Below are positions 3 through 29,181 of a stretch of 38,111 bases of DNA, piece by piece; the first letter of the stretch is position 1, and every line of letters begins with the position of its first letter. The position numbers were made by a program, and so were the translations under genes. The notes under the pieces were generated by a model. The model did not search any database and had not been told where the DNA came from. It saw only the letters and a program-made list of their open reading frames with translations. This DNA comes from Persephonella sp. (GTDB lineage: Bacteria; Aquificota; Aquificia; Aquificales; Hydrogenothermaceae), in contig JALVEY010000036.1 of the NCBI GenBank assembly GCA_027030485.1, positions 1 through 38,111 on the forward strand. Direction: 5' to 3'.

Positions 3-1988
3 GATTTTAAGATAAGAAAATCAAAACATAGAGGAAAAAAAGAGGTTTTTATCCTCCCTGACATATCTGTGTGTGATGAGTGCCTAAAGGAGTTAGACGA
101 TCCAGAAAACAGAAGATACAGGTATCCGTTTATAAACTGTACAAACTGCGGTCCCAGATTTTCTATTATTGAGAAACTGCCGTATGACAGACCTAACACA
201 ACTATGAAACAGTTCAAGATGTGTCCTGATTGTGAAAGGGAGTATAAAGATCCAGAAAACAGAAGATTTCACGCCCAGCCTAACGCTTGTCCTGTTTGTG
301 GTCCCCACATAACTCTTTATACATCAGATAAAAAACTTATAACCCAAAAGGAAGAAGCCCTTGAAAAAACAGTCCAGCTTTTGAAAGAGGGAAACATAAT
401 AGCTGTAAAAGGTGTGGGAGGTTTCCATCTTGTTTGTGATGCAACAAATGATCAGGCTTTAAAAAAATTAAGAGAAAGGAAAAAAAGGGGAGAAAAGCCG
501 TTTGCAGTGATGTTCAGGGATATTAATCAGATAAAAGAGTACGCAAAGATTACAGATTTTGAAGAGGCTGTTATCCTTTCTCCAGAAAGACCTGTTGTGA
601 TAGTCAAATCAAAAAAAGGGACAGATCTAAGCCCTGAGGTTGCTCCATTCTTAGACAGGATAGGTGTTTTTCTTCCTTATTCACCTCTACATTACCTTCT
701 TCTGAATGATTACAAAAAACCTCTCGTGATGACATCTGCAAATCTTTCTGATGAACCAATAGTGAAGGATAACGATCAGGCTTTTGAAAAACTGTCTGTA
801 TTCACAGATTACGTACTTGTTCACAACAGAAAAATAAAAAACAGGGTTGACGATAGCGTAGTCAGGGTTATAAATAAAAAGATCTCTTTTATCAGGCGTT
901 CACGGGGATATGCCCCTCTTCCTGTAAAGCTCCCTTTCAAACTAAAGAGAAAAGTTTTAGCTGTTGGAGGACACCAGAAAAACACGATAGCTGTAGGATT
1001 TGATGATAAGGCTTTTTTGAGCCAGCATATAGGAGATCTTCAGACTTTTGATGCCTGCAGAAATTTTGAGGAGGTTATTGAGTCATTTTTCAGTCTTTAT
1101 GATTTTAAACCAGATGTAGTTGTTTGTGATCTCCACCCGTCATATTTCTCAACAAAATGGGCAAAAGATTTTTCACAAAAAAATGGTGTTTCTCTTGTTC
1201 AGGTTCAGCACCATTACTCCCATGCCCTATCCCTTATGGCCGAAAACCAGATAAAAGAAAGGATACTTGCTGTAAGCTGGGACGGAACTGGATACGGTGA
1301 TGATGGAAATCTGTGGGGAGGGGAGTTTCTTGTGTGTGGTTATGAAGGATATGAAAGGGTTTCTCATTTTGATTACTTCAGGCTTATAGGTGGTGAAAAG
1401 GCTGTAAAAGAGCCAAGAAGAGTTGCCATTTCAGTCTTATTCAGTATTTTTGGGGAAAATATTCCTGATACGCCCTGTTTAAAAGCATTTAAAGAAAAAG
1501 AGATAGATATCCTGTACAAAATGTGGGAAAAAGGACTGAACTCTCCATTTTCTTCCTCTGCTGGAAGGCTTTTTGATGCTGCTGCCTCAATTCTTGGGAT
1601 CAGACAGATTCTTTCTTATGAAGGACAGTCAGGTATGATAATGGAAAACTTTTATGACCGGAATGTTAAAGATTTTTATCCGTTTGAAATAGATAATACT
1701 GTCAGCTGGAAACCAATCTTTGAGGAGATGATAAAAGATATATCAGATGTTTCTGTCAAGGTATCCCGTTTTATCAATACACTTGCAGAGGTTGTGATAA
1801 GGGTTTACAAAGAAAAGGGAGAAGGTTTAAAGATCGGTCTAACAGGTGGTGTTTTCCAGAACAGGTTTTTAACAGAAAAAGTGATAAGTCTGTGTGAAAA
1901 AGAAAAAATATCTGTCGTCACACATAAGAAAGTTCCCCCAAATGATGGGGGAATATCTTTAGGTCAGCTTGTTTTTCAAGGGTTATGA
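3..1988 (+). CDS. hypF: HypF carbamoyltransferase, [NiFe]-hydrogenase maturation (5'-truncated by window edge)
   Basis: HypF uses carbamoyl phosphate and ATP to carbamoylate the C-terminal Cys of HypE, which supplies the CN ligands of the [NiFe] hydrogenase active site in the cytoplasm. The frame is open from base 3, so the gene starts upstream and the N-terminal acylphosphatase domain is missing here. Visible parts, in order: two zinc-finger units (CDEC...CTNC and CPDC...CPVC), a YrdC-like domain (around VKGVGGFHLVCDATN), and a Kae1-like domain with HHYSHAL, DGTGYGDDG, SSAGRLFDAAAS and GLTGGVFQNRFL. A GTG at 69 lies inside the first zinc finger and is not the real start. The stop overlaps the convergent peroxiredoxin gene by 6 bases. 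Its presence implies a hydrogenase elsewhere in the genome, in keeping with a hydrogen-oxidising lifestyle. Confidence 0.95.
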   Translation, partial: DFKIRKSKHRGKKEVFILPDISVCDECLKELDDPENRRYRYPFINCTNCGPRFSIIEKLPYDRPNTTMKQFKMCPDCEREYKDPENRRFHAQPNACPVCGPHITLYTSDKKLITQKEEALEKTVQLLKEGNIIAVKGVGGFHLVCDATNDQALKKLRERKKRGEKPFAVMFRDINQIKEYAKITDFEEAVILSPERPVVIVKSKKGTDLSPEVAPFLDRIGVFLPYSPLHYLLLNDYKKPLVMTSANLSDEPIVKDNDQAFEKLSVFTDYVLVHNRKIKNRVDDSVVRVINKKISFIRRSRGYAPLPVKLPFKLKRKVLAVGGHQKNTIAVGFDDKAFLSQHIGDLQTFDACRNFEEVIESFFSLYDFKPDVVVCDLHPSYFSTKWAKDFSQKNGVSLVQVQHHYSHALSLMAENQIKERILAVSWDGTGYGDDGNLWGGEFLVCGYEGYERVSHFDYFRLIGGEKAVKEPRRVAISVLFSIFGENIPDTPCLKAFKEKEIDILYKMWEKGLNSPFSSSAGRLFDAAASILGIRQILSYEGQSGMIMENFYDRNVKDFYPFEIDNTVSWKPIFEEMIKDISDVSVKVSRFINTLAEVVIRVYKEKGEGLKIGLTGGVFQNRFLTEKVISLCEKEKISVVTHKKVPPNDGGISLGQLVFQGL

Positions 1989-2468
1989 ACCGGTGAGTTT
2001 CTGAAGTTCTTCAATCACTTTTGCGACATGTCCTTTTGCCTTTACATTCTTCCATTTTTTAACTATCTTTCCTTCAGGTGAGATTATATAGGTTGATCTT
2101 ATAACCCCTACTGTTGTTTTTCCGTACATCTTTTTTTCCCCGTAAGCATCGTATGCCTGAAGAACTTTCTTATCAGGATCAGAAAGAAGGTAAAAGTTCA
2201 GATCATACTTTTCCTTAAACTTTTTATGGCTGTTGATACTGTCTGGACTTACACCTGCAACCACTGCTCTGTCGGCAACTGCATTCAGATTATCCCTGAA
2301 GTCGCAAGCCTCCGTTGTACAGCCGGGAGTGTTGTCCTTGGGATAAAAATACAGGATTAAATATTTTCCTTCAGATAAAAGATCTTTTAGACATATATCT
2401 TTTTCTTCTCCATCAGGAGTTAAACCTTTCAGACAAAAATCAGGTGCTCTATCTCCTTCTTTCAGCAT
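1983..2468 (-). CDS. bcp: Peroxiredoxin, PrxQ/Bcp type
   Basis: A thiol peroxidase of 161 residues that reduces H2O2 and organic hydroperoxides in the cytoplasm, recycled by thioredoxin. The active-site segment TPGCTTEACDFRD is clear. The first Cys is the peroxidatic residue and the Cys five residues later is the resolving residue typical of PrxQ. Length is normal for the family. The ATG at 2468 follows GGAGG at good spacing. It lies 37 bases downstream of the FG-GAP protein gene on the same strand, so the two may be co-transcribed. Its 3' end overlaps the end of hypF by 6 bases. A short inverted repeat includes its ribosome-binding site. Confidence 0.95.
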   Translation of the reverse strand: MLKEGDRAPDFCLKGLTPDGEEKDICLKDLLSEGKYLILYFYPKDNTPGCTTEACDFRDNLNAVADRAVVAGVSPDSINSHKKFKEKYDLNFYLLSDPDKKVLQAYDAYGEKKMYGKTTVGVIRSTYIISPEGKIVKKWKNVKAKGHVAKVIEELQKLTGS

Positions 2469-2505: not shown

Positions 2506-4584
2506 CTACAGTTTTTGCTTGAGTAAAAATCCTTTTTGTAATCCTTTAATCTGGAGCTTAGGTTTTAGAATGTTTCCTTTTTTGTCCAGAATGAACGGTT
2601 TAACAGGAAGTTTTACAGATGGAGGTTTGTAAAAACTGCCCTTTCTTGGAACGTAGTAATCAAGGATAAGATGTCCGTCTACACTGTCGTAATACAGAAC
2701 AGCACCTATAGTGTACTGCCTTGAATGGAGATTACACTGGGGAAAACCTCCTTTATACTGCACGCTTATACTTGTAGATTCTTCAAAACTGATTTTATGG
2801 GTACTTATTCTTGTGTTTTTATAATCTCCGCTAAACTTCATCTCTGTCTTCCACAGTAGAGAACCCCCTTTAGCCTCCAGATTAATGCCGATCTCATGTG
2901 TTAATTTTGACTTTTGTATAGAAACAGTTCCCTCTTTCTGTGCGAAAAACACACCTGAAGGTGCACATGTTATGTCTATCTCCCAGCTTGCTATCTCATT
3001 GCTTTGGGAGTAATGGTAAAGCTGGGATTTTCTTTCAGGATAGGAAGCAACATACCCGTTAACATGCATGTTTGATCTGTATATTCCTATATTTTTTGTG
3101 CCCATTGAGACAGGTACAGAAACTAATATGTACTGCTGTTTGCCTCCTATTTTCGCAAAACGGGGAGGGCTAATAATTGGGTATTCGTATACGTGGTATG
3201 TTGAGGTCAGGGTAAATGCACGATCTTCATAAACATCTGCATTCATGTTCTGACCTATCGTAATTGATAAAGACTTGCCTTTTGTTCTTTCGCTGTACGT
3301 TTTTATTTGCTGTTTAAGTTTTATACTGGCTGTGGCTATTTTGGGTATGCCTCCTTTTGCTGAAAGCTGGGTTGATAATGTGAAACTGCTTATAGCCGTA
3401 ACGGTTTGTTCTGTGATTTTTTGCTCTTTATTTTCGTATGAGGCGTACAGTTTTCCCAGAGAATCTGGGCTGTCAGGTTCACCGAAGATAGACCTTTCTT
3501 TAGGGGGTTCATTAATTACTGCTATCACCTGATTTTCAATCACCATAGGTTTTGGTCCTGTAGGATTTCCTACTACAAGTGAGTCCCCGTCTAAATCAAG
3601 GAGAGCAATCCTGTCGTACCTTTCAATTCCTGCGTTGATTGATCCTATTTCCTCCCCCATTAATGTGTAAATATGTATTTTGTCATCTTTTGCGTATCCG
3701 ACTACTATCTCATCTTTTCCGTCAGAATTGACATCTCCTACAGCAACATGGCTGTATTTGTCGTATTTAACCTTTAAAGGTCTAAATTTTTCATTACTTT
3801 GAGGTCTTAATCCCATGCCGTTGTCAAACATAAAAAAATGTACAGTCCCGTCGTTATTGACAAAAACTATCTCGTCCACATTGTCCCCGTCCACATCTCC
3901 GGCAGACAGTTTGTCCTTTCTGTCAAAAATACCAGATGCTTTGATTTTTCCTACCTCTTTTAGTTTCCTTCCGAGAATTTTGAATATTCTAAGTTCATTT
4001 TTTGAAGCATCACCGAGTATTATCTCATCATAACCGTCCCCATCAACATCACCTGATGCTATTTTGTCGTATCTTTCAAATCCTACATTGACGGCTGCAA
4101 CCTTTCTTCCTCCCCCTGTATAAACCTCAATTGTGTCCCTTGCAGCACTACCTATGATAATTTCGTCGTAGCCTCCCCTGTCGGCATACACATTTCCGAC
4201 AGTCATGTCGTCATAACCTTCAAATCTAACATCAAAAGATTTGATAACCGTAAATCTTTTAGGGGAAATTATCGCTATTTTTCCTCTCAGACTTTTAGGT
4301 CCTCTGTCCTTTCCAAATCCGATAATTATTTCGTCTCTGTAGTTTCCTAAAACATTCCCTCCTCCAATTTCGTCATGTCTGTCGTATTCTTCTTTAAGCT
4401 GGGCTACTATTCCTCTTGTTATTCTCCTTCTAAAATCAAAAGTGGCTACAGCATCTTTAGAGGCATCGCCGACAATAATCTCAAGATCTGAAACGATTGT
4501 CCTCTTCATAAGAGGATCATCTGAGCTGTAGCTAAATGAGAATATTAAACAGAATATAACCGTAAGAAAGGTAAACTTTCGCAT
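2506..4584 (-). CDS. Secreted FG-GAP/VCBS-repeat beta-propeller protein, function unknown
   Basis: 692 residues with an N-terminal signal peptide (MRKF then a hydrophobic stretch ending SYSS at about residue 21), so it is exported. Residues of about 35-350 hold roughly six FG-GAP/VCBS-type repeats. Several carry calcium-loop motifs of the D-x-D-x-D form: GDVDGDGYDEI, GDVDGDNVDEI, GDVNSDGKDEI and LDLDGDS. They probably form a beta-propeller. The C-terminal 340 residues are rich in alternating polar and hydrophobic positions, suggesting beta structure, and match no family I recognise. The start is supported by AGGAGG just upstream of the ATG. There is no membrane anchor or sorting motif I can name. 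It is followed by bcp on the same strand. Confidence 0.8.
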   Translation of the reverse strand: MRKFTFLTVIFCLIFSFSYSSDDPLMKRTIVSDLEIIVGDASKDAVATFDFRRRITRGIVAQLKEEYDRHDEIGGGNVLGNYRDEIIIGFGKDRGPKSLRGKIAIISPKRFTVIKSFDVRFEGYDDMTVGNVYADRGGYDEIIIGSAARDTIEVYTGGGRKVAAVNVGFERYDKIASGDVDGDGYDEIILGDASKNELRIFKILGRKLKEVGKIKASGIFDRKDKLSAGDVDGDNVDEIVFVNNDGTVHFFMFDNGMGLRPQSNEKFRPLKVKYDKYSHVAVGDVNSDGKDEIVVGYAKDDKIHIYTLMGEEIGSINAGIERYDRIALLDLDGDSLVVGNPTGPKPMVIENQVIAVINEPPKERSIFGEPDSPDSLGKLYASYENKEQKITEQTVTAISSFTLSTQLSAKGGIPKIATASIKLKQQIKTYSERTKGKSLSITIGQNMNADVYEDRAFTLTSTYHVYEYPIISPPRFAKIGGKQQYILVSVPVSMGTKNIGIYRSNMHVNGYVASYPERKSQLYHYSQSNEIASWEIDITCAPSGVFFAQKEGTVSIQKSKLTHEIGINLEAKGGSLLWKTEMKFSGDYKNTRISTHKISFEESTSISVQYKGGFPQCNLHSRQYTIGAVLYYDSVDGHLILDYYVPRKGSFYKPPSVKLPVKPFILDKKGNILKPKLQIKGLQKGFLLKQKL

Positions 4585-4663
4585 CTGTGAACCTCCTTTT
4601 TTTGATTAATTTGGAATGGCAGAGGTTACAGACAATGGATAAAAATTTTGTATTATACGAACC

Positions 4664-5662
4664 TTATGATAGATCCTTAAAATCCAGAAGATCAGGAAGA
4701 TCATTAAATGATTTGAAGTAAAGCTTATATTTACTTTCAAACTGGTTCTTCTTAACGCCTATTATTTTTCTGATAATTTCAGGATCAACTTTTTTTTCTA
4801 ACATATGGGCAACAAATGAATCTCTAAGTGATTTAAATGATAAGTTTCTATTAATATTTGAGTTTTTCAAAGCTTTTTTAAATATTTCTTCTGCAGATCT
4901 TGGGGTTAGATGTTTTTCTGTGTTTCCCTCTGAAAAGAATATATACCCTTTTTTTCTGTCTTTTTTAAATATTTCTAACTTTCTGGCAAGAGATTCAGGA
5001 ATGGGAACCTTTCTGGAATTTTTTCTAACAGTAAGAATACCGTCTTTAAAATCTATATCCTCAACTTTTATTCTTACTGTTTCCTGAAGTCTTAGACCAC
5101 AGCTGTATGCCACTTCAATTAATAATCTGTGTTTAATGTTTTTTATATTCTCTAAAATCCTTTTAATTTCCTGTCTTGATAATGTTCCTGATATGGGTAT
5201 TTTTGAAACAGGTCTTTTTATACCGCTGAAATCTATCTTTTTTAGCAAGTTGTGGTAAAAATATTTTAAAGCACTGTATGCAACCCCTAATGTGCTTTCC
5301 GATTTTCCTCTTCTTTTTAAGATTGACAAAAATCTTTCTATATCTTTATCTGTAATCTCAGTGGGTGTTTTATTTAATGTTTTCAGGAATGCCAAATTTA
5401 CAGAAAAATATGTTTTTTTTGTTGTTTGGGAGAAATTAGAGTTCTTCAGTCCTTCTTGCAGCTCAAATAAATAACAGCTCTTATCAATTTTTTCAGAGCC
5501 TAAATATCTTTCAAGTTTCTCAAGGTTCATCTGGGTTGTTTTAATGTAGTAATAATTTTCTCCTGCTGTGTAATCTGTTTTGTATAGGTTTTTTATTAGA
5601 CCCTTTCCCTCTTTTTTTTCTATCAGGAAATAGCCACCTCTGCTTAAAAAAGCTGTAGCCAA
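4664..5662 (-). CDS. Divergent tyrosine recombinase / integrase-like protein
   Basis: 332 residues with the layout of a tyrosine recombinase: a SAM-like core-binding domain at about residues 60-150 and a catalytic domain at about 160-320. The first Arg is present (CGLRLQE, R191), as are a candidate beta-hairpin Lys (near 214-218), the second Arg (KSLR, R280) and the nucleophile (Y312 in ESKYKLY). However, the His of the usual HxxR box is Lys (K277), and the His/Trp of the usual LGH box is Val (V303). The TTG start lies 10 bases after the hisIE stop, with TAGGAG spanning that stop as the ribosome-binding site, so it appears to be co-transcribed with hisIE. A start at the ATG encoding Met45 is possible but lacks a good binding site. 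One 60-base line counted by hand has 15 G+C, against 26 in hisIE, hinting at transfer. It could be a Xer-type protein or an inactive relic. Confidence 0.8.
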   Translation of the reverse strand: MATAFLSRGGYFLIEKKEGKGLIKNLYKTDYTAGENYYYIKTTQMNLEKLERYLGSEKIDKSCYLFELQEGLKNSNFSQTTKKTYFSVNLAFLKTLNKTPTEITDKDIERFLSILKRRGKSESTLGVAYSALKYFYHNLLKKIDFSGIKRPVSKIPISGTLSRQEIKRILENIKNIKHRLLIEVAYSCGLRLQETVRIKVEDIDFKDGILTVRKNSRKVPIPESLARKLEIFKKDRKKGYIFFSEGNTEKHLTPRSAEEIFKKALKNSNINRNLSFKSLRDSFVAHMLEKKVDPEIIRKIIGVKKNQFESKYKLYFKSFNDLPDLLDFKDLS

Positions 5663-5672
5663 TGGATATCTC

Positions 5673-6302
5673 CTATTTATATCTTTTTAGTAGTTCCTCT
5701 TGAAGATCCTGTATCTTAACTTCAGCATCAACAAGGGCTATAATGAGATGAAATATTAGATCTGAAGCTTCGTATATAATCTCATCTTTGTTTTTGTTTT
5801 TTAAAGCTATTACAGTTTCTACAGCTTCTTCTCCCACTTTCTGGATTATTTTGTCTGAGCCTTTTTCAAACAACTTTGCAACATAAGAACCTTCAGGCTT
5901 TTCTATCTTTCTCTGGAGAAGTTTTTCATACAGGGCGTGGAATATCTCGTATGCGTCAGGTTTTTCTTCTTTTTTTAGATCAATATTTCTGTAAAAACAG
6001 CTTTCTTCTCCAGTATGACATGCTACCCCGTAATCTTTTACCAGATACAGTATGCTGTCCCCGTCACAGTCTATCTTTATTTTCACTATTTTTTGTTTGT
6101 TGCCTGAGGTTTCCCCTTTTACCCATAGTTCTTTGCGGGAACGGGAGTAGTATGTTGCGTATCCTGTTTCTATTGTTTTTTCTACCGCTTCTTTGTTCGC
6201 ATAAGCCTGCATTAAGACTTTGCCTGTGTAGTAGCTCTGGGTTATAACAGGAACAAGACCTTCAGAGTTGAATTTTATCTCACTTAGAATAGATTTATCC
6301 AA
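5673..6302 (-). CDS. hisIE: Bifunctional phosphoribosyl-AMP cyclohydrolase / phosphoribosyl-ATP pyrophosphatase
   Basis: Catalyses steps 2 and 3 of histidine biosynthesis in the cytoplasm. The HisI half (residues of about 1-115) carries the metal-binding region with [11 protein letters not shown] and [12 protein letters not shown]. The HisE half (about 120-209) carries the helical MazG-like fold with [12 protein letters not shown] and the [12 protein letters not shown] segment. At 209 residues, this is the expected length for the fused enzyme. The start is TTG at 6302, downstream of an AGAGG sequence. Upstream, 77 bases separate it from the divergent dxs. The recombinase gene follows immediately. 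Confidence 0.96.
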
Positions 6303-9601: not shown

Positions 9602-9613
9602 ATCCCCTCTTTT
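9589..9613. terminator. Bidirectional intrinsic terminator between the DUF151 gene and the ankyrin operon
   Basis: GAGGGG (9593-9598), a 5-base loop and CCCCTC (9604-9609) form a perfect 6-bp stem. A G-U and three A-T pairs extend it outward. T runs follow on both strands (TTTT on plus, CTTTTT on minus). The hairpin overlaps the stop codons of both convergent genes. Confidence 0.75.
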
Positions 9614-10967
9614 AAATATGTTTTGCTTTCGCTTTAAGTAGTATCTTTTTGATTTCTGGGACTTTTGCGTAATCAAGAGGCGTTTTTCCTCTCAGATCTT
9701 TTGCATTAACATCTGCCCCTTTTTTTATTAAAAATTTAACCATTTCTGTCTGTCTTCTCAGAACTGCAAGATGAAGAGGGGTTTCTTTGTATTTTCCTTT
9801 AAGATTAACATCAGCTCCACGACTTATAAGAAGCCTGGCTACATCTATTTTGCCTGCCATAGCAGCCTTAAATAAAGGTGTCCACCCTTTATTATTTTTT
9901 GCATTTATATCTGCCCCGTGTTTTATAAGAACCTGAGCAACTTTTAAATGACCTTCAAGTGCTGCTATGTGAAGGGGTGTATCTCCGTACTCATCTTCGA
10001 CGTTTACTTTTGCTCCATGCTTTATAAGATATTCTGTTAAATCACTGTCTCCATTTCTTGCTGAAACATGTAAAACATAATCTCCGTATTTGTTTTCTCT
10101 TGCGTTAACGTTTGCATTCCGATCAATTAACAGCTTAACTAACTCTATTTTTCTTCTGAAAGTTGCCTCATGAAGAGGTGTCCATCCATCGTTGTCCTGA
10201 GCATTAACATCAGCTCCATTGTTTATCAGAAATTTTACAACCTTTATGTCGCTTCCGGCCAGTGCAAGATGGAGAGGGGTTTTGCCTTTATTATTCCTCG
10301 CATTAATATACGATCCTTTTTGAACGAGTATTTTAACCAGATTAAACTTTCTTTGAATTACAGCTTTGTGTAAAGGAATTTCTCCGTCTTTATCTTTTAT
10401 GTTTGGGTCTGCTCCATTCTCAAGGAGTATCTTTGCAACCTCATACTCTCCTCTGAATGCTGCATGGTGAAGAGGCGTCCAGCCATTACTGTTCTGTGAG
10501 TTTATGGAGGAGCCAGCCTCAATTAATATTTGGACTACTGTAGGATGTCCTCCAAGAGCTGCAAGATGAAGGGGGGTATCCCCTTCACTATTTTTTACAT
10601 AAACATCAGCCCCATTTTCTAACAGTAGTTTTACAATCTCATCATATCCTAAAAAAGCTGCTTCATGGAGAGGAGTCCATCCTTCAAGGTTCTGTGCATT
10701 TATGTTTGCACCTTTGTTTATAAGCATTTTAGCAAGATTTATATCTCCCTTGATTGTTGCAAGATGAAGGGGAGTATTACCTAAAATGTTTTTAACATTT
10801 ATACCTGCACCTTCTTCTATTAGTTCTTTGACCGCTTTAACATTTTCTTGAGATATTGCTTCGGTTAATTTCTTATTAAGCTCAGCTTTTGTTTTTCCAT
10901 GTGTAGAAATAACAGGGAGAATAGTAAACAAAACCACACTTATAAACAGTTTGTAAAATCTTCTCAA
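9612..10967 (-). CDS. Exported ankyrin-repeat protein, 13 repeats including caps
   Basis: 451 residues with an N-terminal signal peptide (MRRFYKLF plus a hydrophobic core), then an almost unbroken ankyrin solenoid of 33-residue units: an N-cap, about 11 full repeats (GxTPLHxAA...GADVNAKD) and a C-cap ending in GKTPLDYAK. Ankyrin stacks bind other proteins. No enzymatic domain is present, so the partner is unknown. Repeat 9 (GDYVLHVSARNG) is degenerate. The third and last gene of a three-gene ankyrin operon, it starts 12 bases after the previous stop with GGAGG upstream. Its last two repeats are very similar to those of the 266-residue paralogue, also at DNA level. The likely location is the periplasm, inferred from the signal peptide. 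Confidence 0.9.
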   Translation of the reverse strand: MRRFYKLFISVVLFTILPVISTHGKTKAELNKKLTEAISQENVKAVKELIEEGAGINVKNILGNTPLHLATIKGDINLAKMLINKGANINAQNLEGWTPLHEAAFLGYDEIVKLLLENGADVYVKNSEGDTPLHLAALGGHPTVVQILIEAGSSINSQNSNGWTPLHHAAFRGEYEVAKILLENGADPNIKDKDGEIPLHKAVIQRKFNLVKILVQKGSYINARNNKGKTPLHLALAGSDIKVVKFLINNGADVNAQDNDGWTPLHEATFRRKIELVKLLIDRNANVNARENKYGDYVLHVSARNGDSDLTEYLIKHGAKVNVEDEYGDTPLHIAALEGHLKVAQVLIKHGADINAKNNKGWTPLFKAAMAGKIDVARLLISRGADVNLKGKYKETPLHLAVLRRQTEMVKFLIKKGADVNAKDLRGKTPLDYAKVPEIKKILLKAKAKHI

Positions 10968-10979
10968 TTTACTTCCTCC

Positions 10980-11780
10980 TTAAAAAATTTCACTTCCCCT
11001 TTTCCCTCCCAGTTTCTGGAGCAACTTTTTCAGATCTTCAACTTTCGCATAATCAAGGGGAGTACGTTTTCTTATATCTTTAGCATTAATGTTAGCTCCT
11101 TTTTTGATTAAAAAAAGCACCATTTTCTTATGTTTCCTCATAACAGCAAGATGAAGAGGGGTTTCTCTCGATCTTCCACATGCGTTTATATCAGCACCAT
11201 TCTCTAACAATATTTTTGCTACTTCAACCTTTCCTGTCAATGCAGCTTTGTGCAGTGGGGTCCATCTTCTGGCATTCAAAGCATTAACATTAGCTCCCTT
11301 CTCAATTAATATTTTAACTATGTCAACATGTCCTTCAAGTGCTGCAAGGTGAAGGGGAGTGTCCCCATATTTGTCTTTTACATTTACGTCTGCACCTTTT
11401 TCTATGAGTAATTTCAGTATTTCGGTATATCCTTTCATCGCTGCAATATGTATCGGGGCATATCCGAAAAATTTTTCCCTTGCGTTTATATCAGCACCAT
11501 TTTCAATCAGGATTTTTACTATTTTTAAATTTCCTTTACTAACCGCCCTTAACAAAGGTGTGTAATTGTTCTTATCCCTTGCGTTAACATCTGCACCCTT
11601 TTCTAAAAGTTCTTTAACAAGTTCAGCATCCCCTAATTTTATCGCTTCAAACAGTTTACGGTTTAATTTTTCTCTCGTTTCAGCAAAGGCTCGGAAAACA
11701 GTTATATTTTTTTCCATTGAAGGTAATATAGTTAACAAAGGGAAAACAAGCAGAAACATAATAATCTTTTTTGACAACAT
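10980..11780 (-). CDS. Exported ankyrin-repeat protein, about 7 repeats
   Basis: 266 residues. The N-terminus (MLSKKIIMFLLVFPLLTIL) is a signal peptide or signal anchor. Residues of about 35-255 form seven ankyrin units including caps, with typical segments such as GDTPLHLAALEGHVDIVKIL and GADVNARD. The C-cap RTPLDYAK resembles that of the 451-residue neighbour. Second gene of the operon, 8 bases after the stop of the 224-residue gene and 12 bases before the 451-residue gene. There is no catalytic domain. The function is unknown beyond protein binding. Confidence 0.9.
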   Translation of the reverse strand: MLSKKIIMFLLVFPLLTILPSMEKNITVFRAFAETREKLNRKLFEAIKLGDAELVKELLEKGADVNARDKNNYTPLLRAVSKGNLKIVKILIENGADINAREKFFGYAPIHIAAMKGYTEILKLLIEKGADVNVKDKYGDTPLHLAALEGHVDIVKILIEKGANVNALNARRWTPLHKAALTGKVEVAKILLENGADINACGRSRETPLHLAVMRKHKKMVLFLIKKGANINAKDIRKRTPLDYAKVEDLKKLLQKLGGKRGSEIF

Positions 11781-11788
11781 TATGCTAC

Positions 11789-12463
11789 CTATTTTCTTAA
11801 TATTTTAAGGAATTCTGGATCCTGAGTATAATCCTTCGGTGTATGTCCAAACTTGTCTTTTATGTTAGGATCAGCCCCTAATTTTATCAGGAGTTTAGCA
11901 ACCTCCTTATGATTCCAAAATACAGATTCGTGAAGGGGTGTATCACCATCTTCATCTACAGCATTTACATCAGCTCCGTGTTCCACCAGATATTTTACAA
12001 CATCTACATGACCGTGTCTTGCTGCATAATGAAGTGGAGTTGAACCGTTTTTTGTTCGTGCATTAATGTCAGCTCCGTATTTTAAGAGAATTTTCACAGT
12101 GTTTAGATTACCCTGTCCAGCTGCAAGGTGTAGGGGGGTTTCCCAGTTATCATCTTTTGCATTGACATCAGCTCCATTCTTTATTAGGTACTCTACTATT
12201 TCAACATTCCCTTTAAATGCAGCCTCATGAAGTGGAGTCCATCCGATAGCATCTTTGCTGTTTACATCTGCTCCTTTCTGGATCAGTTCTTTTATTAATT
12301 TTATATTTCCTTCAGAAACAGCCCTGTTTAAAGGAGGTTTCCCTTCCTTTTTCTTGAGTCTTTCTTTTAGTTCTTCAATAGTTTTAGGCTTTTCGTCTGC
12401 TTTAAGGGAGGAGGGCAGTATAATAAGAAAAAATAATAAAAATATAGTATTTAAAAATCTCAT
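11789..12463 (-). CDS. Exported ankyrin-repeat protein, 5 repeats plus cap
   Basis: 224 residues. A signal peptide (MRFLNTIFLLFF through about SSLKA) is followed by a short charged linker and five ankyrin repeats with a C-cap (GHTPKDYTQDPEF). Repeats alternate GWTPLHEAA, WETPLHLAA, GSTPLHYAA and GDTPLHESV forms. GGGAGG lies 7 bases before the ATG. An ATG closer to that site is out of frame. First gene of the three-gene ankyrin operon. It is probably periplasmic, inferred from the signal peptide. Confidence 0.9.
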   Translation of the reverse strand: MRFLNTIFLLFFLIILPSSLKADEKPKTIEELKERLKKKEGKPPLNRAVSEGNIKLIKELIQKGADVNSKDAIGWTPLHEAAFKGNVEIVEYLIKNGADVNAKDDNWETPLHLAAGQGNLNTVKILLKYGADINARTKNGSTPLHYAARHGHVDVVKYLVEHGADVNAVDEDGDTPLHESVFWNHKEVAKLLIKLGADPNIKDKFGHTPKDYTQDPEFLKILRK

Positions 12464-21285: not shown

Positions 21286-23739
21286 ATGTTTGAGAAGTTT
21301 ACAGAAAGAGCACGAAAAGTAATACTTAATGCAAGAGAAAAAGCTTTAGAATACAGAAGTAATTATCTGGGAAGTGAACATCTTCTTCTTTCTCTTCTGG
21401 AAGAAGAAGACATACCTGTTCTTGTTCTGTCAAGATTTGGTTTAACAATTGATAAAGTTAAAAGAACTCTTACCTCCCAGATGGTTCATGGCAGTCATTC
21501 AGGGGAGGTTCTTTTTGCCCCTGACGCAAAAAGAGTTCTTGAGTTTGCAGTGGAAGAAGCGAGAATACTCCACCACCAGTTTGTAGGACCTGAACACCTG
21601 CTTATAGGTGTTGTAAGAGAAAAAACAGGTTTGGGAGGTAGAGTTTTAAGGGGATTTGGTATAGACGAGTACTCCATCAGAAAGGAGATACTCCAGATCC
21701 TTGGAGAAATACCGCCTCAGGAGCAGGTAAAACAGGTTCCAACACCAAACATAGACAGATTTTCCAGAGATTTAACAGCTTTAGCAAGAGAAGGTAAGCT
21801 TGATCCTGTTATAGGCAGAGACAGGGAAATAGACAGGGTTATCCAGATTCTCTCAAGAAGGAGGAAAAATAATCCGGTTCTTATAGGAGAGCCTGGAGTA
21901 GGAAAAACATCAATAGTTGAAGGTCTTGCCCAGAGGATAGCAAACAAAGAAGTACCTGAACCACTCCAGTCGAAAAGGATAGTAGCCCTTGATCTTGCTG
22001 CTCTTGTTGCTGGAACAAAGTATAGAGGTCAGTTTGAAGAAAGGCTTAAAAATATCCTTAAAGAACTGGAAAAAGCACCTTATATCATCCTGTTTATAGA
22101 TGAACTTCACACACTTGTTGGAGCTGGGGCAGCAGAAGGATCTATAGATGCATCAAATATGTTAAAACCTGCCCTTGCAAGGGGAGAAATTCAGGTTATT
22201 GGTGCAACAACAATAGATGAGTACAGGAAGTATATAGAAAAAGATGGAGCTCTGGAAAGGAGATTTCAACCTGTTTTAGTAGAACCTCCAACTCCGGAAG
22301 ATACCATAAAAATACTTCTTGGTCTTAAGAAAAAGTTTGAAGAGTTCCATGAGGTTGAATACACAAAATCTGCTATAGAAAAAGCTGTAGATTACTCGGT
22401 TAAATACATAACAGACAGACAGCTTCCTGATAAGGCTATTGATCTGATTGATGAAGCGGGAGCATGGGTCAGAATAAGAGAGATGGCTCTTCCCCCAAAA
22501 CTTAAAAAAATAGAAGAAAGGATAAAGAAAATAGAGGAAGAAAAAGCAATAGCTGCAAAAGAACAGGATTACGAAAAAGCAGCAAAGCTTAGAGATGAAG
22601 AACTTAAGCTCAGAGCAAAGTTTGAGACATTAAAAGCTGAATGGAAAGAAAAGAAGAAAGTAAAAAAACCAAAGGTAAAAGATGACGATATAGCTCTGGT
22701 TGTTGCAAAATGGACAGGAATTCCTGTTGCAAGGCTTACAGAAACACAAGCAGAGAAACTTCTCCATATTGAGGAAGAACTTCACAAAAGGGTAGTTGAT
22801 CAGAACGAGGCCATAGAAGCTATATCAAAGGCTATAAGAAGAAACAGCGTTGGTCTAAAGGGAACTCACAGACCTATAGGAGTATTCATGTTTCTCGGAC
22901 CAACAGGAGTTGGAAAAACAGAAACAGCTAAAGCCCTTGCCGAATATCTCTTCGGAACAGAAGACGCTCTTATAAGATTTGATATGTCTGAATATATGGA
23001 AAAACATACAGTTTCAAGGCTTGTAGGTGCACCTCCAGGATATGTAGGTTATGAAGAGGGCGGACAGCTTACTGAGGCTGTCAGAAGAAGACCTTACTCT
23101 GTTATACTGTTTGATGAGATAGAGAAAGCACATCCGGATGTTTTCAATATATTCCTTCAGATATTTGATGACGGTAGATTAACAGATTCTTTTGGTAGAG
23201 TGGTAGATTTCAGCAATACGATAATAATTATGACATCAAATCTTGGTGCAAGGCTTATCCTTGAATCAGAAAGTCTTGGTTTTGAAAAAAAAGCTGGAAT
23301 GCTTGAATATGAAGAAATGAAGAAAAATGTTCTACAACAGGTAAGAAAACATTTCAGTCCGGAATTCTTAAACAGACTTGATGAGATCATAGTGTTTAAA
23401 CCATTGGACAAAGAAGTAATGAAAGGTATAATTGATATACAACTTAAAGAGATAAATAAAAGGCTGAAAGAATGGGGAATAACTGTAAAACTTTCAAGGA
23501 AGTTCGTAGACTATCTTATAGACAAAGAATTCAAACCAGAGTTTGGTGCAAGGTCTATAAAGAGAGCTTTACAATCTCTTGTGGAGGATCTGCTTGCAGA
23601 AGAGATACTGAAAGGGAAATTACCTCCAGGATCTACAGCAGAAGTTATTATCAAAAAAGATGGATCAATTGGTATAAAGGTGAAAAAACCAAAAGCGAAA
23701 GCCTCAAAGAAAAAAGTCAAAGAAGTAGCAACAACTTGA
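21286..23739 (+). CDS. clpC: ClpC-type AAA+ unfoldase, ATPase of the ClpCP protease
   Basis: 817 residues. The order is an N-terminal ClpN repeat domain (about 1-145), the first AAA+ module with Walker A GEPGVGKTS, a UVR-like middle region (EQDYEKAAKLRDEEL), the second AAA+ module with GPTGVGKTET and FDEIEKAHPDVF, and a C-terminal D2-small domain. The UVR segment and length separate it from ClpA and ClpB. A ClpP-docking loop with LGF (ESLGFEKK) is present, so it should feed ClpP. The last 20 residues are a Lys-rich tail. It sits between lolD and bamA. Confidence 0.94.
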   Translation: MFEKFTERARKVILNAREKALEYRSNYLGSEHLLLSLLEEEDIPVLVLSRFGLTIDKVKRTLTSQMVHGSHSGEVLFAPDAKRVLEFAVEEARILHHQFVGPEHLLIGVVREKTGLGGRVLRGFGIDEYSIRKEILQILGEIPPQEQVKQVPTPNIDRFSRDLTALAREGKLDPVIGRDREIDRVIQILSRRRKNNPVLIGEPGVGKTSIVEGLAQRIANKEVPEPLQSKRIVALDLAALVAGTKYRGQFEERLKNILKELEKAPYIILFIDELHTLVGAGAAEGSIDASNMLKPALARGEIQVIGATTIDEYRKYIEKDGALERRFQPVLVEPPTPEDTIKILLGLKKKFEEFHEVEYTKSAIEKAVDYSVKYITDRQLPDKAIDLIDEAGAWVRIREMALPPKLKKIEERIKKIEEEKAIAAKEQDYEKAAKLRDEELKLRAKFETLKAEWKEKKKVKKPKVKDDDIALVVAKWTGIPVARLTETQAEKLLHIEEELHKRVVDQNEAIEAISKAIRRNSVGLKGTHRPIGVFMFLGPTGVGKTETAKALAEYLFGTEDALIRFDMSEYMEKHTVSRLVGAPPGYVGYEEGGQLTEAVRRRPYSVILFDEIEKAHPDVFNIFLQIFDDGRLTDSFGRVVDFSNTIIIMTSNLGARLILESESLGFEKKAGMLEYEEMKKNVLQQVRKHFSPEFLNRLDEIIVFKPLDKEVMKGIIDIQLKEINKRLKEWGITVKLSRKFVDYLIDKEFKPEFGARSIKRALQSLVEDLLAEEILKGKLPPGSTAEVIIKKDGSIGIKVKKPKAKASKKKVKEVATT

Positions 23740-26102
23740 TAAACATCTTAGGGGGGATTATCCCCTTTTTATTTTTGTTTTTCTTCATTTTTTTAGCACC
23801 GGCCAAATCACAGGAAACACCACAGTTAAAACCTGGAAAAATATCAGAAGAAGTTAAAAAAGTTTACAGATTAAGAAAGATAGAGATAAAAGGTTTAAAA
23901 TACGTTAGCCCCCAACTTATATATCCTCTTATTCCGCTGGGAAAAGGAGCTGTAGTAAGTAGAGATAATATTGTCAACATACTAAGGGATCTTTATAAGC
24001 TTGGATATTTCCGAGACATAGAAACATACACAAGATACACAGAAAACGGTATAGATCTGATATTTGTTTTTAAAGAGCTTCCTGTTGTACAGAAGATTGA
24101 GTTTGAAGGAAATGAAGAGCTGTCGGATGAAGATCTTATGCAGGTTTTAGGTATTCAGACAAAGGAAAGACTTGAGTCAGGAGGAGCAATTCCTTTCTCA
24201 ACCATAGGACCAGAGCTTGCAGAAAAGATGGCATCCATCAAAAAAGGTCTTGGTAGAGTTTTTTCCCTTGATGAGATAAATAGAATGGTGAAAGCAATAA
24301 AAGAAAAATACGAAAAGGAAGGTTTTTACAACACCAAAATAACCTATTATTTTAAAGGAAATACACTTGTTTTTAAAATAGATGAAGGTAAAAGAGCCTA
24401 TGTAAAAGAGATAAAGATAATCGGTAACAAACAGTTAGATGAAGATGAAATAGAAGATGTTATGGAAACAAAAGAAAGATGTATATGGAAGCTCAGATTT
24501 AATCCAAGACTTAAAAAAGATGTTCTTCTTGAAGATATTGAAAGAATTAGAGAGTTGTACATAAAAAAAGGGTTTTTTGAAGTTCAGGTAGATAAACCAG
24601 ATATACAGTTGAAAAATGGTGAAGAGTATTATATAACGATCAGGATAAAAGAAGGTCCAAGATATAGACTTTCAGGTGTGGAGTTTAAAAACAACAGGTA
24701 TTACACAGATGATGAGATCATAAGAAGATTTAAAAAAGACCTTAAGATCGGTAGCTATTATAATGGAGAGATTATAGAGAGATTAAAGAAAGAAATTCTT
24801 GATAAGTACACAGAGCTTGGATTTATATTCACAATGATTTATGTAGAAAAACTGCTTGACAAAGGTAAGAAAACTGTCAAAGTTGTCTATGATATACAAC
24901 CGGGAGAGATATTTTATGTTGATAAGATAGATATATCAGGTAATTATGAATCAAGGGATTACGTTATCAGGAGGGAGTTAAGGTTTGCCCCTGGAGATCT
25001 TTTTAAAAGGCAGGATTTATTAAGGTCCCAATCAAGACTTTATTCTCTTGGTTTTTACGATATGATAGGTTTTGATCCCCATGTTAAGGAAGAAGGTAAA
25101 TTAGATGTTGATGTAAAAGTTCAAGAAAGATTTACAGGTCAGATTTCAATAGGAGCTGGCTACAGCCAGCTTACAGGTCTGTCCTTTTTCCTATCTTTAA
25201 GAAAAGGAAACTTCTTAGGAACCGGTGATACCGCAGGAATATCTTTTACGGTGGGTTCAACATACAGAAATAACCAGATCTCATATCTACATAGATGGGC
25301 TTTTTACAAACCGGTGAACCTTGGTTTTAGTCTTTATGACAGATATGTTGATTACACTACATTTGTTTCTGTTAAGCAGGGTTTTTCACCTACACTTTCT
25401 TGGGAGTTATCAGAATACTGGAGAGTAGGAACGGGGATAACATTTGAAAAGGGTAAGTACAAAGATATAACAGAAGATGCCCCTCAGAGAATAAAAGATC
25501 AGGCAGGATCATACAGCCTCGTTTCAACATTTCTTAATTTTACAAGATCAGATGTTGATAACCCAATACTTCCAACAAGGGGAAGCAACTTCAGCATAAC
25601 ATTTAAAGTAGGTTATGGGACGAGGGGCTTTTACAAAACACACTTCAGCTATTCAAAATTTGTACCCGACAAACTCTTTTATACAGACTGGGTTTTGTCC
25701 TTTAAAGGGAGATACGGTGTAGTAGAAAAGATGACTGATAAAATACCTCTTGATGAGTACTTCTTCGTAGGTGGTGATTTTTCCATAAGGGGATTTGATT
25801 ACGGGATGGCAGGACCTTATGACCAGAATAAAGATCCGATAGGTTCAAAACAGCAAATAGTTTTTAATCTTCAGGCTTCACACCCTATTGCACAAAGATT
25901 TTTATGGGGATATGTATTTACAGATATGGGAAAAGGTTATAATTCAGGAAGTCCATTTAAAGATATGTTTTACTCAGTTGGAGCTGGTTTAAAGATAGTA
26001 ACACCTATGGCACCTATTGATATATACTACGGTAAGGTTTTGAACCCCCCTGAAGGTGTAGGAGCTTCAAGAATAGGTTTCGTTCTTGGAACATTCTTTT
26101 AA
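23736..26102 (+). CDS. bamA: BamA (Omp85) outer-membrane beta-barrel assembly protein
   Basis: About 788 residues: a signal sequence ending near LAPAKSQ, five POTRA domains (about residues 40-410, e.g. IEIKGLKYVSPQLIYPLI and KEIKIIGNKQLDEDEIEDVM), then an Omp85 barrel with the conserved DEYFFVGGDFSIRGFDYG region and a terminal Phe. It inserts outer-membrane proteins. The 5' end is awkward: the frame stays open far back into clpC, but no ATG or GTG fits. I chose the TTG at 23736, which overlaps the clpC stop (TTGA). The following codons contain a terminator-like hairpin, so the exact start is uncertain. ompH and lpxD follow directly. Confidence 0.93.
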   Translation: MINILGGIIPFLFLFFFIFLAPAKSQETPQLKPGKISEEVKKVYRLRKIEIKGLKYVSPQLIYPLIPLGKGAVVSRDNIVNILRDLYKLGYFRDIETYTRYTENGIDLIFVFKELPVVQKIEFEGNEELSDEDLMQVLGIQTKERLESGGAIPFSTIGPELAEKMASIKKGLGRVFSLDEINRMVKAIKEKYEKEGFYNTKITYYFKGNTLVFKIDEGKRAYVKEIKIIGNKQLDEDEIEDVMETKERCIWKLRFNPRLKKDVLLEDIERIRELYIKKGFFEVQVDKPDIQLKNGEEYYITIRIKEGPRYRLSGVEFKNNRYYTDDEIIRRFKKDLKIGSYYNGEIIERLKKEILDKYTELGFIFTMIYVEKLLDKGKKTVKVVYDIQPGEIFYVDKIDISGNYESRDYVIRRELRFAPGDLFKRQDLLRSQSRLYSLGFYDMIGFDPHVKEEGKLDVDVKVQERFTGQISIGAGYSQLTGLSFFLSLRKGNFLGTGDTAGISFTVGSTYRNNQISYLHRWAFYKPVNLGFSLYDRYVDYTTFVSVKQGFSPTLSWELSEYWRVGTGITFEKGKYKDITEDAPQRIKDQAGSYSLVSTFLNFTRSDVDNPILPTRGSNFSITFKVGYGTRGFYKTHFSYSKFVPDKLFYTDWVLSFKGRYGVVEKMTDKIPLDEYFFVGGDFSIRGFDYGMAGPYDQNKDPIGSKQQIVFNLQASHPIAQRFLWGYVFTDMGKGYNSGSPFKDMFYSVGAGLKIVTPMAPIDIYYGKVLNPPEGVGASRIGFVLGTFF
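23751..23777 (+). terminator. Terminator-like hairpin at the start of bamA
   Basis: GGGGA (23753-23757), loop TTA and TCCCC (23761-23765) form a 5-bp stem, extendable by two G-U pairs, followed by TTTTTATTTTTG. It has the shape of an intrinsic terminator 12 bases after the clpC stop, yet lies within the predicted signal-peptide codons of bamA. It may attenuate transcription into bamA, or coding pressure may have produced it by chance. Confidence 0.45.
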
Positions 26103-27603: not shown

Positions 27604-28251
27604 TTAAATATTGTTCCTGAATATGTACCCCTTCAATTCCTTTATAGGTGTTAATTCTGAAAGTTTTATTTTATAACACTTTTTCTCAGGACATATCATA
27701 TCATTTTCTTTAGATTTTTCCCATTTCGGATCATCCTTACTGATAAACCCATGTATGTTCACAACAATTGATGGGAAACTGTTGTACCTCCTTTTGTTAA
27801 ACAATTCGTTAAGCTCTGTACAGCTTATATTAAAAAGTTTACCTATGGAAAGTTTATGTTTTATTGAAAGTCCAACATATATGTCCTTAGAATGGTTCTC
27901 AAATTGATCCTCAGGTACAATCATATATCTATTCTTATGGTTAGGTGTCGTTTTAATGTCTAAAGAGTAATCTTTTATTACTAAATCAAAACTATCAACA
28001 TTTGTAGTTCCAAAATATATACTGAAGGACTCTGATCTAAATTTTTGGAAATCAATTGATGATACAATTCCATAATCTAAACACCACTTCAAGAAGGAAT
28101 ATTCACCCAACTTCCCGGTAAAAATCCGCCACAGATGGAGATTTATATTTTTTTTGCTTTTCTTAGTTCTGAGAAAAGTTTGGGATGCTGATGAGCATGC
28201 AAACCATAATGAGGTTATAAAAGTGTCATAATCTACTTTAATTTTTTCCAT
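27604..28251 (-). CDS. Putative type II restriction endonuclease (PD-(D/E)xK-like)
   Basis: 215 residues matching no family I can name. A plausible PD-(D/E)xK core is visible: E50 in GKLGEYSFLKW, D89 in SFDLVI, then D98-x-K100 in SLDIKTT, in the right order and spacing for a metal-dependent nuclease. The gene is divergent from a DNA methyltransferase, the classic arrangement of a type II restriction-modification pair. Hand counts of two 60-base lines gave 19 and 17 G+C, against 25 in lpxD, which hints at horizontal acquisition. No Shine-Dalgarno sequence is seen before the ATG. The endonuclease role is inferred from context plus motif; cleavage specificity cannot be read from the sequence. 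Confidence 0.6.
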   Translation of the reverse strand: MEKIKVDYDTFITSLWFACSSASQTFLRTKKSKKNINLHLWRIFTGKLGEYSFLKWCLDYGIVSSIDFQKFRSESFSIYFGTTNVDSFDLVIKDYSLDIKTTPNHKNRYMIVPEDQFENHSKDIYVGLSIKHKLSIGKLFNISCTELNELFNKRRYNSFPSIVVNIHGFISKDDPKWEKSKENDMICPEKKCYKIKLSELTPIKELKGYIFRNNI

Positions 28252-28261
28252 TTACTTAATT

Positions 28262-28298
28262 TTGTTTAATTGATGTCAGACATATTATACAATAAAAC
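28262..28298. promoter_or_regulatory. Divergent promoter region and possible operator of the R-M cassette
   Basis: On the minus strand a TATAAT box (28289-28284) lies about 33 bases before the putative endonuclease ATG. On the plus strand TTGATG (28270-28275) with TAAAAC (28293-28298), or TTGTTT (28262-28267) with TATACA (28286-28291), could serve the methyltransferase. Between them is an 11-base palindrome, ATGTCAGACAT (28273-28283, arms of five around a central A), placed where a repressor could block both promoters. No controller gene is visible nearby. Confidence 0.4.
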
Positions 28299-28332
28299 AT
28301 AATTAAGATCTGTTAAACTTAGGGGAAAAAGG

Positions 28333-29181
28333 ATGCCTGAAAAAAGTATACCCGGATATGAAATCAAAATATCAACAGATAGAATTGAGATAGATAACAG
28401 ATTGAAATTCTTCTTTAAAAGTTCGGATAATATGAAAGAGATCAAAAATAATGAGGTAGACTTAATAATTACTTCTCCCCCTTACTTTAATTACATTAAT
28501 TATGGAAATGGTATAGGAAATGAATCAAATTATGAAGAATACCTGGCAAATTTAGGAAAGGTTTTTAAAGAATGTTATAGAGTTTTAAAATCAGGAGGAA
28601 CTTTCGTAATCAATATAACAAATATGAAATCCAGATTAAAAGTTGAAAAGAAAAGCTTTCTTTATCCTATTGTTGCTGATGTTATAAAAAGCATGACAGA
28701 TATAGGATTTATATTTTTTGATGAAATTATCTGGATTAAAGGAAACGCAAATAATGGAGCATTAAAAGGGAAACCTTTATTTGGTAGTTATCCTTATCCT
28801 CCAACGCCTAAAATTCTTGATAGCATTTTTGAAAATATATTAGTTTTTAGAAAAGAAGGAAAAAGAAGGAAAGTTAGTAAATCAATAAAAGAAAACTCTA
28901 AGTTAACTAAAGAAGAATGGATAGACTATACTAAAGGTATATGGTTCATTGAACCAGACAGAAAGGCTAAACATCCTGCTACTTTTCCTATAGAAATTCC
29001 AAAAAGATTAATAAAGATGTACTCTTTTAAAGGAGATGTCGTTTTAGACCCTTTTGCAGGGACTGGAACTACTTTAATAGCAGCATATATTCTAAAAAGA
29101 AATTCTGTAGGATACGAAATAAATAACCATTTTGGAGAAGAGTTCATCCATAAATTTGAAAAATTTGTTCAAGAAATATAA
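28333..29181 (+). CDS. Beta-class DNA methyltransferase (N4-cytosine or N6-adenine)
   Basis: 282 residues. The catalytic motif IV TSPPYFNY is near the N-terminus (about 47-54), and the SAM-binding motif I DPFAGTGTTLIAA is near the C-terminus (about 239-251). This order defines the beta class. SPPY rather than DPPY favours N4-methylcytosine, though that is only a trend. KHPATFPIEIPKRLI before motif I is typical of the family. GGGGAAAAAGG precedes the ATG. It is strongly AT-rich: two 60-base lines counted by hand had 15 G+C each, against about 26 in pnp. It would protect the host from the divergent putative endonuclease. Confidence 0.92.
   Translation: MPEKSIPGYEIKISTDRIEIDNRLKFFFKSSDNMKEIKNNEVDLIITSPPYFNYINYGNGIGNESNYEEYLANLGKVFKECYRVLKSGGTFVINITNMKSRLKVEKKSFLYPIVADVIKSMTDIGFIFFDEIIWIKGNANNGALKGKPLFGSYPYPPTPKILDSIFENILVFRKEGKRRKVSKSIKENSKLTKEEWIDYTKGIWFIEPDRKAKHPATFPIEIPKRLIKMYSFKGDVVLDPFAGTGTTLIAAYILKRNSVGYEINNHFGEEFIHKFEKFVQEI

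Follow-up and report, generated by a model that had tools for sequence, protein, structure and literature searches.

A catalytically degenerate tyrosine recombinase homologue of one genus, paired with an FG-GAP repeat gene, as a candidate DNA-binding derivative

Known parallels include recombinases that have given up recombination. PMC10516654 describes MrpR (YopR; PDB 8A0A) as the master repressor of the Bacillus subtilis prophage SPbeta. According to that text, MrpR no longer acts as a recombinase and represses by binding SPBRE; it keeps three of seven hallmark residues, Tyr included, and carries Val at the HisIII position. TnsF of the Tn6022 Tn7-like transposons, as presented in PMC10293859, keeps an inactivated recombinase domain for DNA targeting. 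Active homologues of TnsF are known; the protein carries zinc fingers at its N terminus and acts together with TniQ (same paper). A KxxR motif occurs in SSV1-type integrases (PMC8371274). No description of the gene pair reported here was found in the open-licence literature.

The window, which is the whole stretch of 38,111 nucleotides analysed, carries this pair between hisIE and a peroxiredoxin gene:

4664..5662, minus strand: gene A, a catalytically degenerate tyrosine recombinase homologue of 332 aa with a TTG start
2506..4584, minus strand: the partner gene, encoding an FG-GAP repeat protein of 692 aa with a signal-peptide-like start by reading
5673..6302, minus strand: hisIE, the upstream flank of the pair
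1983..2468, minus strand: an AhpC/TSA-family peroxiredoxin gene, here called bcp, the downstream flank of the pair

Gene A reads from TTG at 5662 to a stop codon at 4664-4666 in an open frame, and an ATG at the corresponding position in the G009 and G012 orthologues supports the start call. The initial annotation had reported an intact tyrosine recombinase gene placed right after hisIE, with Lys and Val at the two catalytic His positions. Its coordinates are right and the frame is open, on the minus strand; 10 nt separate the hisIE stop codon from the gene A start, and the two residues are confirmed as K277 and V303.

By homology, gene A belongs to the tyrosine recombinase/phage integrase superfamily, as both of its domains score above the curated Pfam cut-offs: Phage_integrase (PF00589; E 1.9e-25, 90.1 bits, cut-off 27.1) and the core-binding SAM-like domain (PF13495; E 6.9e-12, 46 bits, cut-off 27). 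Together with the predicted structure, this gives three domains:

5483..5662, minus strand: N-terminal domain, residues 1-60, with strands and helices in the order E-E-H-E-E-H in the model
5237..5482, minus strand: core-binding SAM-like domain, residues about 61-142, from Pfam and the model
4715..5191, minus strand: catalytic-fold domain, residues about 158-316, with hallmark residues lost

The N-terminal domain is HARP-like only via alignment to a canonical relative (L042), whose own Pfam HARP match lies under the cut-off (E 5.6e-4, 19.8 bits, cut-off 25); Pfam gives no HARP match for the window protein itself, and no zinc-finger family appears among its matches up to E 1. In the C-terminal tail, P323 and F328 are invariant in 14 sequences of A and of its sister paralogue, B. 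The pI of A is high (9.75-10.11), and charge says little about function because a high pI is common to canonical relatives (9.55-9.86).

An AlphaFold2 model built on the alignment of A and B (pLDDT 85.8, pTM 0.53) predicts the domains well and their mutual placing poorly. VIA-align compares this model with XerA (4a8e) at Z 20.3, and with SroF, YopR and MrpR at Z 12.7-13.7. These repressor structures rank 39-46 in the fold list, with whole-chain rmsd of 7-13, under many active recombinases; the fold therefore cannot separate repressor from recombinase function. Six sequences of solved structures match at E of at most 0.001; archaeal XerC-like/XerA proteins and IntI4 lead them, and MrpR is absent. 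With integrase-type proteins nearest and 8% identity to MrpR, gene A does not belong to the MrpR family by descent. What it does have in common with MrpR is a predicted recombinase fold that lacks the catalytic set.

The positions concerned are:

5090..5092, minus strand: R191, Arg I position; Lys in 5/8 distinct A and 8/8 B proteins
4832..4834, minus strand: K277, HxxR His position; Lys in 8/8 distinct A, Ser in 8/8 B
4823..4825, minus strand: R280, Arg II; Arg in 16/16 distinct proteins of A and B together
4820..4822, minus strand: D281; Asp in 16/16 distinct proteins of A and B together, His in the aligned canonical relatives (LRH to LRD)
4754..4756, minus strand: V303, LGH His position; Val, Ile or Met in 16/16 distinct proteins of A and B together
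4727..4729, minus strand: Y312, nucleophile position; Tyr in 8/8 distinct A, Tyr in 5/8 and Phe in 3/8 B

These counts, and the tree, use eight distinct A and eight distinct B proteins; the A protein of G013 is omitted, as it shows no amino-acid difference from that of G005. Among the six hallmark positions, Arg II alone is invariant across all 16. Arg I is R in three and K in 13. The nucleophile is Y in 13 and F in three, all three in B; as these three copies group together in the tree (80/74), the loss of Tyr in B is perhaps a single event. The beta2-beta3 hairpin of the catalytic Lys is 2-4 residues shorter in A and B than in the relatives from G059 and G123. Within the A orthologues, Lys at the HxxR His position, Val or Ile at the LGH His position, and both Tyr and Arg II are each found in 9/9. 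The hallmark set of an active recombinase, R-K-H-R-H/W-Y, is thus broken in gene A by the two replacements of His (H to K, H to V), by the shortened hairpin, and by an Arg I that orthologues do not conserve.

The claim that both catalytic Arg are kept is true of this copy and fails for the family, in which 13 of 16 distinct proteins have Lys at Arg I. A picture of two Arg kept and only His lost understates the change, since Arg I, the Lys hairpin and the Tyr of three B proteins are altered as well. Lys at Arg I occurs in all B, in three of five A lineages (G003, G012 and G004/G009) and in G011, and an orthologue 90% identical to the window protein has Lys at position 191. Because Lys is so widespread here, the window copy may have regained its Arg rather than kept it; catalytic residues judged kept from one genome can mislead. 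A check for orthologues with normal His residues found them at 0/17 A and B loci, which rejects gene A as a lone degenerate copy of a normal-His family. Of seven former active-site positions compared across five representative A proteins, five never vary (Glu194, K277, R280, D281 and Y312), while Arg I and HisIII do. This invariance of former active-site positions is not exceptional, as 47 of the 157 catalytic-fold columns are invariant in the same five proteins.

In the genomes searched, both paralogues are confined to one genus, where genus and phylum are kinship labels attached to those genomes. Group A is present in 9/14 genus genomes (G000, G003, G004, G005, G006, G009, G011, G012 and G013) at 51-90% identity to the window protein, and group B in 8/14 (G001, G003, G004, G005, G006, G007, G009 and G013) at 34-38%. 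Four of the five genomes that lack A are 55-78% complete; the fifth, G001, is 99% complete. Across 61 genomes (its own and 60 relatives), strong relatives are restricted to the genus except for one G059 protein. A search of 136 phylum genomes with an A+B profile returned 17 loci at 474-516 bits, all in the genus, and no further A or B member appeared among the 122 other genomes. The next best matches, in G123 (218 bits) and G059 (214 bits), have all hallmark residues; the remainder, part of them inspected, score at most 86 bits. Elsewhere in the phylum, a 156-aa canonical-looking recombinase fragment in G082 (L089, 421-888) reads LGR instead of LGH.

Beyond the phylum, a single-protein scan of genome contigs, suited to close relatives only, gave one relative, a protein with hallmark residues from a Bacilli MAG. 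Viral contigs scanned with the alignment gave one weak partial match. Phage records yielded 54 matches and plasmid records at least 5000, all below 60% identity; the 20 listed of each lie at 25-32% and 25-29%, respectively, and the matches listed are annotated as integrase or recombinase, or carry no annotation. PADLOC gave no match at E of at most 0.001 for either protein of the pair, for B or for the neighbour of B, and the reading of A as a known anti-phage defence gene is rejected on this search.

In the tree, A (97/97), B (100/99) and the joint A+B branch (100/100) are all supported. Given this fully supported joint branch, the catalytic changes common to both, and with them the loss of catalytic residues, would most simply predate the A/B duplication.

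This lineage lost its active-site residues while the protein stayed under selection. The best inference from the sequences is that A is a DNA-binding derivative; on balance we think it likely that A is a genus-specific, catalytically dead recombinase kept for DNA binding and plausibly regulating the FG-GAP gene. If so, the ancestor of A and B would have been a canonical tyrosine recombinase of the XerA/integron-integrase type. Recombination chemistry would have been lost, most simply before the duplication, and the protein would then have been retained by selection for binding DNA. In this mechanism, A would grip DNA with its core-binding and catalytic-fold domains, in the way of active recombinases, and leave it uncleaved. 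More tentatively, A may bind at or near a candidate element in the gap that follows its stop codon, and may regulate the FG-GAP gene beyond this gap in the manner of the SPbeta repressor MrpR. Descent, fold and precedent make DNA binding the natural expectation. For A, the most economical local role would be regulation of the FG-GAP gene, as suggested by the gene pairing and one conserved element. Such regulation cannot be the family's only role, because G007 has the FG-GAP gene without A, and B has no FG-GAP gene adjacent at any of its loci.

The pairing itself is strict where A occurs: the FG-GAP gene lies directly downstream on the same strand in 9/9 genomes with A. The FG-GAP gene is found in 10/14 genus genomes, with one weak partial match (G042) among the other 47 and none found in G059. 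The order hisIE-A-FG-GAP-bcp holds in 7/9 genomes with A; in G004 and G009 the pair sits beyond bcp. Among ten A-less genomes examined, hisIE and bcp lie 10-14 nt apart in three (G001, G007 and G015), are on different contigs in G002, G017, G018 and G022, and were not both found in G010 and G014. In G008, also A-less, an arsenic-type gene group lies between them, comprising ArsR-like, short and ArsC-like ORFs (L109, G008:C23, 3745-4823). An ArsC-like gene is found at the hisIE-bcp region of G004 and G009 too (cluster c100), and genes may have entered this junction more than once in the genus. The hisIE record of G008 (G008:C23, 24325-24951) contains four stop codons, from draft error or decay.

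B lies between a gene for a 126-aa protein and an SDR gene at 8/8 loci, with one further ORF between the flanks in G007 and two on the SDR side in G005. Its orientation is opposite to that of these flanking genes (L036, 4977-7085; L155). In G015, where no B was found, the two flanking genes overlap by ATGA. Thus both the A pair and B look, from gene order, like insertions into tight gene junctions. No transposition gene was recognised by eye among window ORFs of at least 80 aa (first 12 kb) or at least 120 aa (rest), and the window has no tRNA and no Rfam feature at the gathering threshold.

Other parts of the window show features of their own. Three consecutive ankyrin-repeat genes, named by reading, occupy 9612-12463 on the minus strand, and related ORFs lie near A in L043 and L047 (c55). 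At 27604-29181, between lpxD-like and pnp-like genes (by reading), a 215-aa ORF and a DNA methyltransferase-like gene (282 aa) may form a compact restriction-modification insert. At 23472-26102, the start listed for a BamA-like ORF falls within the clpC-like gene that precedes it, and translation probably begins at a more downstream position.

The candidate site for A lies in the gap between the two genes of the pair:

4651..4661, minus strand: conserved element TTCGT[AT]TAATA, closely following the stop codon of A at 9/9 A loci

The element starts 1-7 nt past the stop codon at the nine A loci. By plain counts, five lineages agree in 10 of the 11 element columns, compared with 9 of the 75 other columns of the gap alignment. 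In 657,752 bases of locus sequence (overlaps included), no exact copy of the 11-mer lies anywhere but after A genes. Upstream of the A-less FG-GAP gene of G007 there is no match with two mismatches allowed. A 17-base pattern with two mismatches gave 53 matches in ten genomes against 75 in reversed controls, in a coarse search that missed the known G012 site. In the B genes of G003 and G007, TTCGT directly follows the stop codon, where the full element matches with three mismatches at a chance-level score; TTCGT is absent from this position at the other six B loci.

One possible history, which we regard as doubtful, is a regulatory cassette derived from a retired mobile element: the dead recombinase would have gone on binding an ancestral, half-site-like 11-bp element just 3' of its gene, the site would have become the operator of an FG-GAP gene inserted along with it, and B, a second dead copy, would have taken another chromosomal role. 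The TTCGT after two B stop codons would fit an element older than the A/B duplication, as this history would have it.

The element may also be only a promoter. That it is simply the FG-GAP promoter, with A an unrelated gene travelling along, seems unlikely to us. It does contain a -10-like hexamer, TATAAT or TTTAAT, 5' of the FG-GAP start. However, conservation extends to the TTCGT ahead of the hexamer, a sigma-70 scan did not list the site on the minus strand, and TTCGT also follows 2/8 B genes, none of which lies next to an FG-GAP gene, though the full element scores there at chance level.

The check for a second, canonical Xer gene found one in the same genome (L001), and a separate canonical Xer with hallmark residues is present in 14/14 genus genomes. 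Gene A as the sole Xer of the organism is thereby rejected. As a chromosome-dimer resolvase it is not supported either, given the canonical Xer in all 14 genomes and the absence of A or B from several, mostly incomplete drafts. The window protein falls short of the curated Xer scores (XerA 143 of 220 bits, XerD 91 of 330, XerC 84 of 335) and of the integron integrase model (104 bits, cut-off 265). Of the suggestion of a lineage-specific Xer variant, the lineage specificity stands, as A and B are seen in one genus, and the chromosome-dimer Xer lacks support.

Alternatively, A and B may be accessory subunits: unable to cleave, they would join an active recombinase, such as the canonical Xer present in all 14 genomes, and lend DNA contacts or architecture. 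The predicted recombinase fold would allow such pairing, and the conserved tail residues P323 and F328 could pack against a neighbouring subunit. Against this, canonical Xer is also present where A, B or both were not found, and A and B are located elsewhere in the chromosome than Xer. A generic 20-base dif pattern with three mismatches gave 95 matches against 74 in reversed controls over nine genomes; three of the nine reached about 2-3 times control, and no single site stood out. We consider accessory subunits distinctly unlikely.

The next alternative is that A and B are non-functional, slowly eroding remnants of an old integrated element. Catalytic residues are lost, and presence is patchy, although four of the five A-less genomes are incomplete. 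The exception, G001, lacks both A and the FG-GAP gene and is a supported sister (100/100) of G006 and G005, which both carry the pair; its sisters' pair implies either a clean loss in G001 or separate gains. (The species-type tree omits G007 and G008, for which genes are partial, G013 and G010.) Set against erosion, all 17 A and B copies are open across the gene, at 50-90% (A) and 33-35% (B) identity to the window protein in a 14-row alignment. The one stop codon flagged within a match, in G003, is the normal end of that gene, which falls inside the match because the G003 tail is shorter.

Selection estimates point the same way. By a simple Nei-Gojobori estimate, dN/dS is 0.220, 0.099, 0.113, 0.157 and 0.149 in five informative A pairs, and 0.114, 0.099, 0.139 (few changes) and 0.146 in four B pairs. 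The comparison genes hisIE, dxs and bcp give 0.042-0.115, and the FG-GAP gene 0.091-0.135. Excluded from these ranges are three pairs with saturated values (nan), together with the G005-G013 comparisons, where the sequences are near-identical (A 0.000; B 0.805, from very few changes). The highest A value belongs to the window's own pair, G000-G011. Gene A is under purifying selection, mostly weaker than that on housekeeping genes. A plain pseudogene is disfavoured, and eroding remnants appear very unlikely.

Least probable of all, and in our view highly improbable, is that A still cleaves DNA strands through an atypical active site, with Lys in place of the first His and a hydrophobic residue in place of the second: KxxR by itself is compatible with activity, since KxxR integrases exist (PMC8371274), A keeps Tyr and Arg II in 9/9, and the clean junctions of the A pair and B could mean past or present mobility, but Arg I is Lys in 5/8 distinct A, the hairpin is shortened and HisIII is V or I in 8/8, and Tyr is lost in 3/8 B, perhaps in one event.

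For a DNA-binding derivative of this kind, the order of catalytic loss and regulatory-site gain is testable, with canonical relatives, an Arg I that is R or K, a nucleophile that is Y or F, and insert-free junctions all at hand.

By sequence and by fold, the closest solved proteins are XerA (4a8e, 5hxy) and the integron integrase IntI4 (2a3v), whose aligned parts carry a canonical LRH, unlike the window protein. The best-scoring relatives outside the genus, L042 (G059) and L087 (G123), belong to the same phylum and align over the N-terminal, core-binding and catalytic domains; in contrast to A and B, they keep all six hallmark residues. SroF of Bacillus phage phi3T (9rd5, 9rgl; Z 13.5-13.7), known here from its PDB title as a 'repressor', has a recombinase-like fold and differs from A in being a phage protein, at 13-14% identity. 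Like TnsF, A has a probably inactive recombinase domain with active homologues known; unlike TnsF, it has no zinc-finger match. Like MrpR, A has the tyrosine recombinase fold (Z 12.7), most hallmark residues replaced and Val at HisIII; unlike MrpR, to which it is 8% identical in the fold alignment, it carries an additional N-terminal domain and has an FG-GAP gene as its partner. MrpR is a phage repressor with several prophage sites, whereas the candidate element of A shows no excess elsewhere in the genomes searched. The passage from recombinase to pure DNA-binding protein is already documented in phage (MrpR) and transposons (TnsF); here it would extend to two paralogues, probably catalytically dead, across one bacterial genus, in ordinary chromosomal gene clusters.
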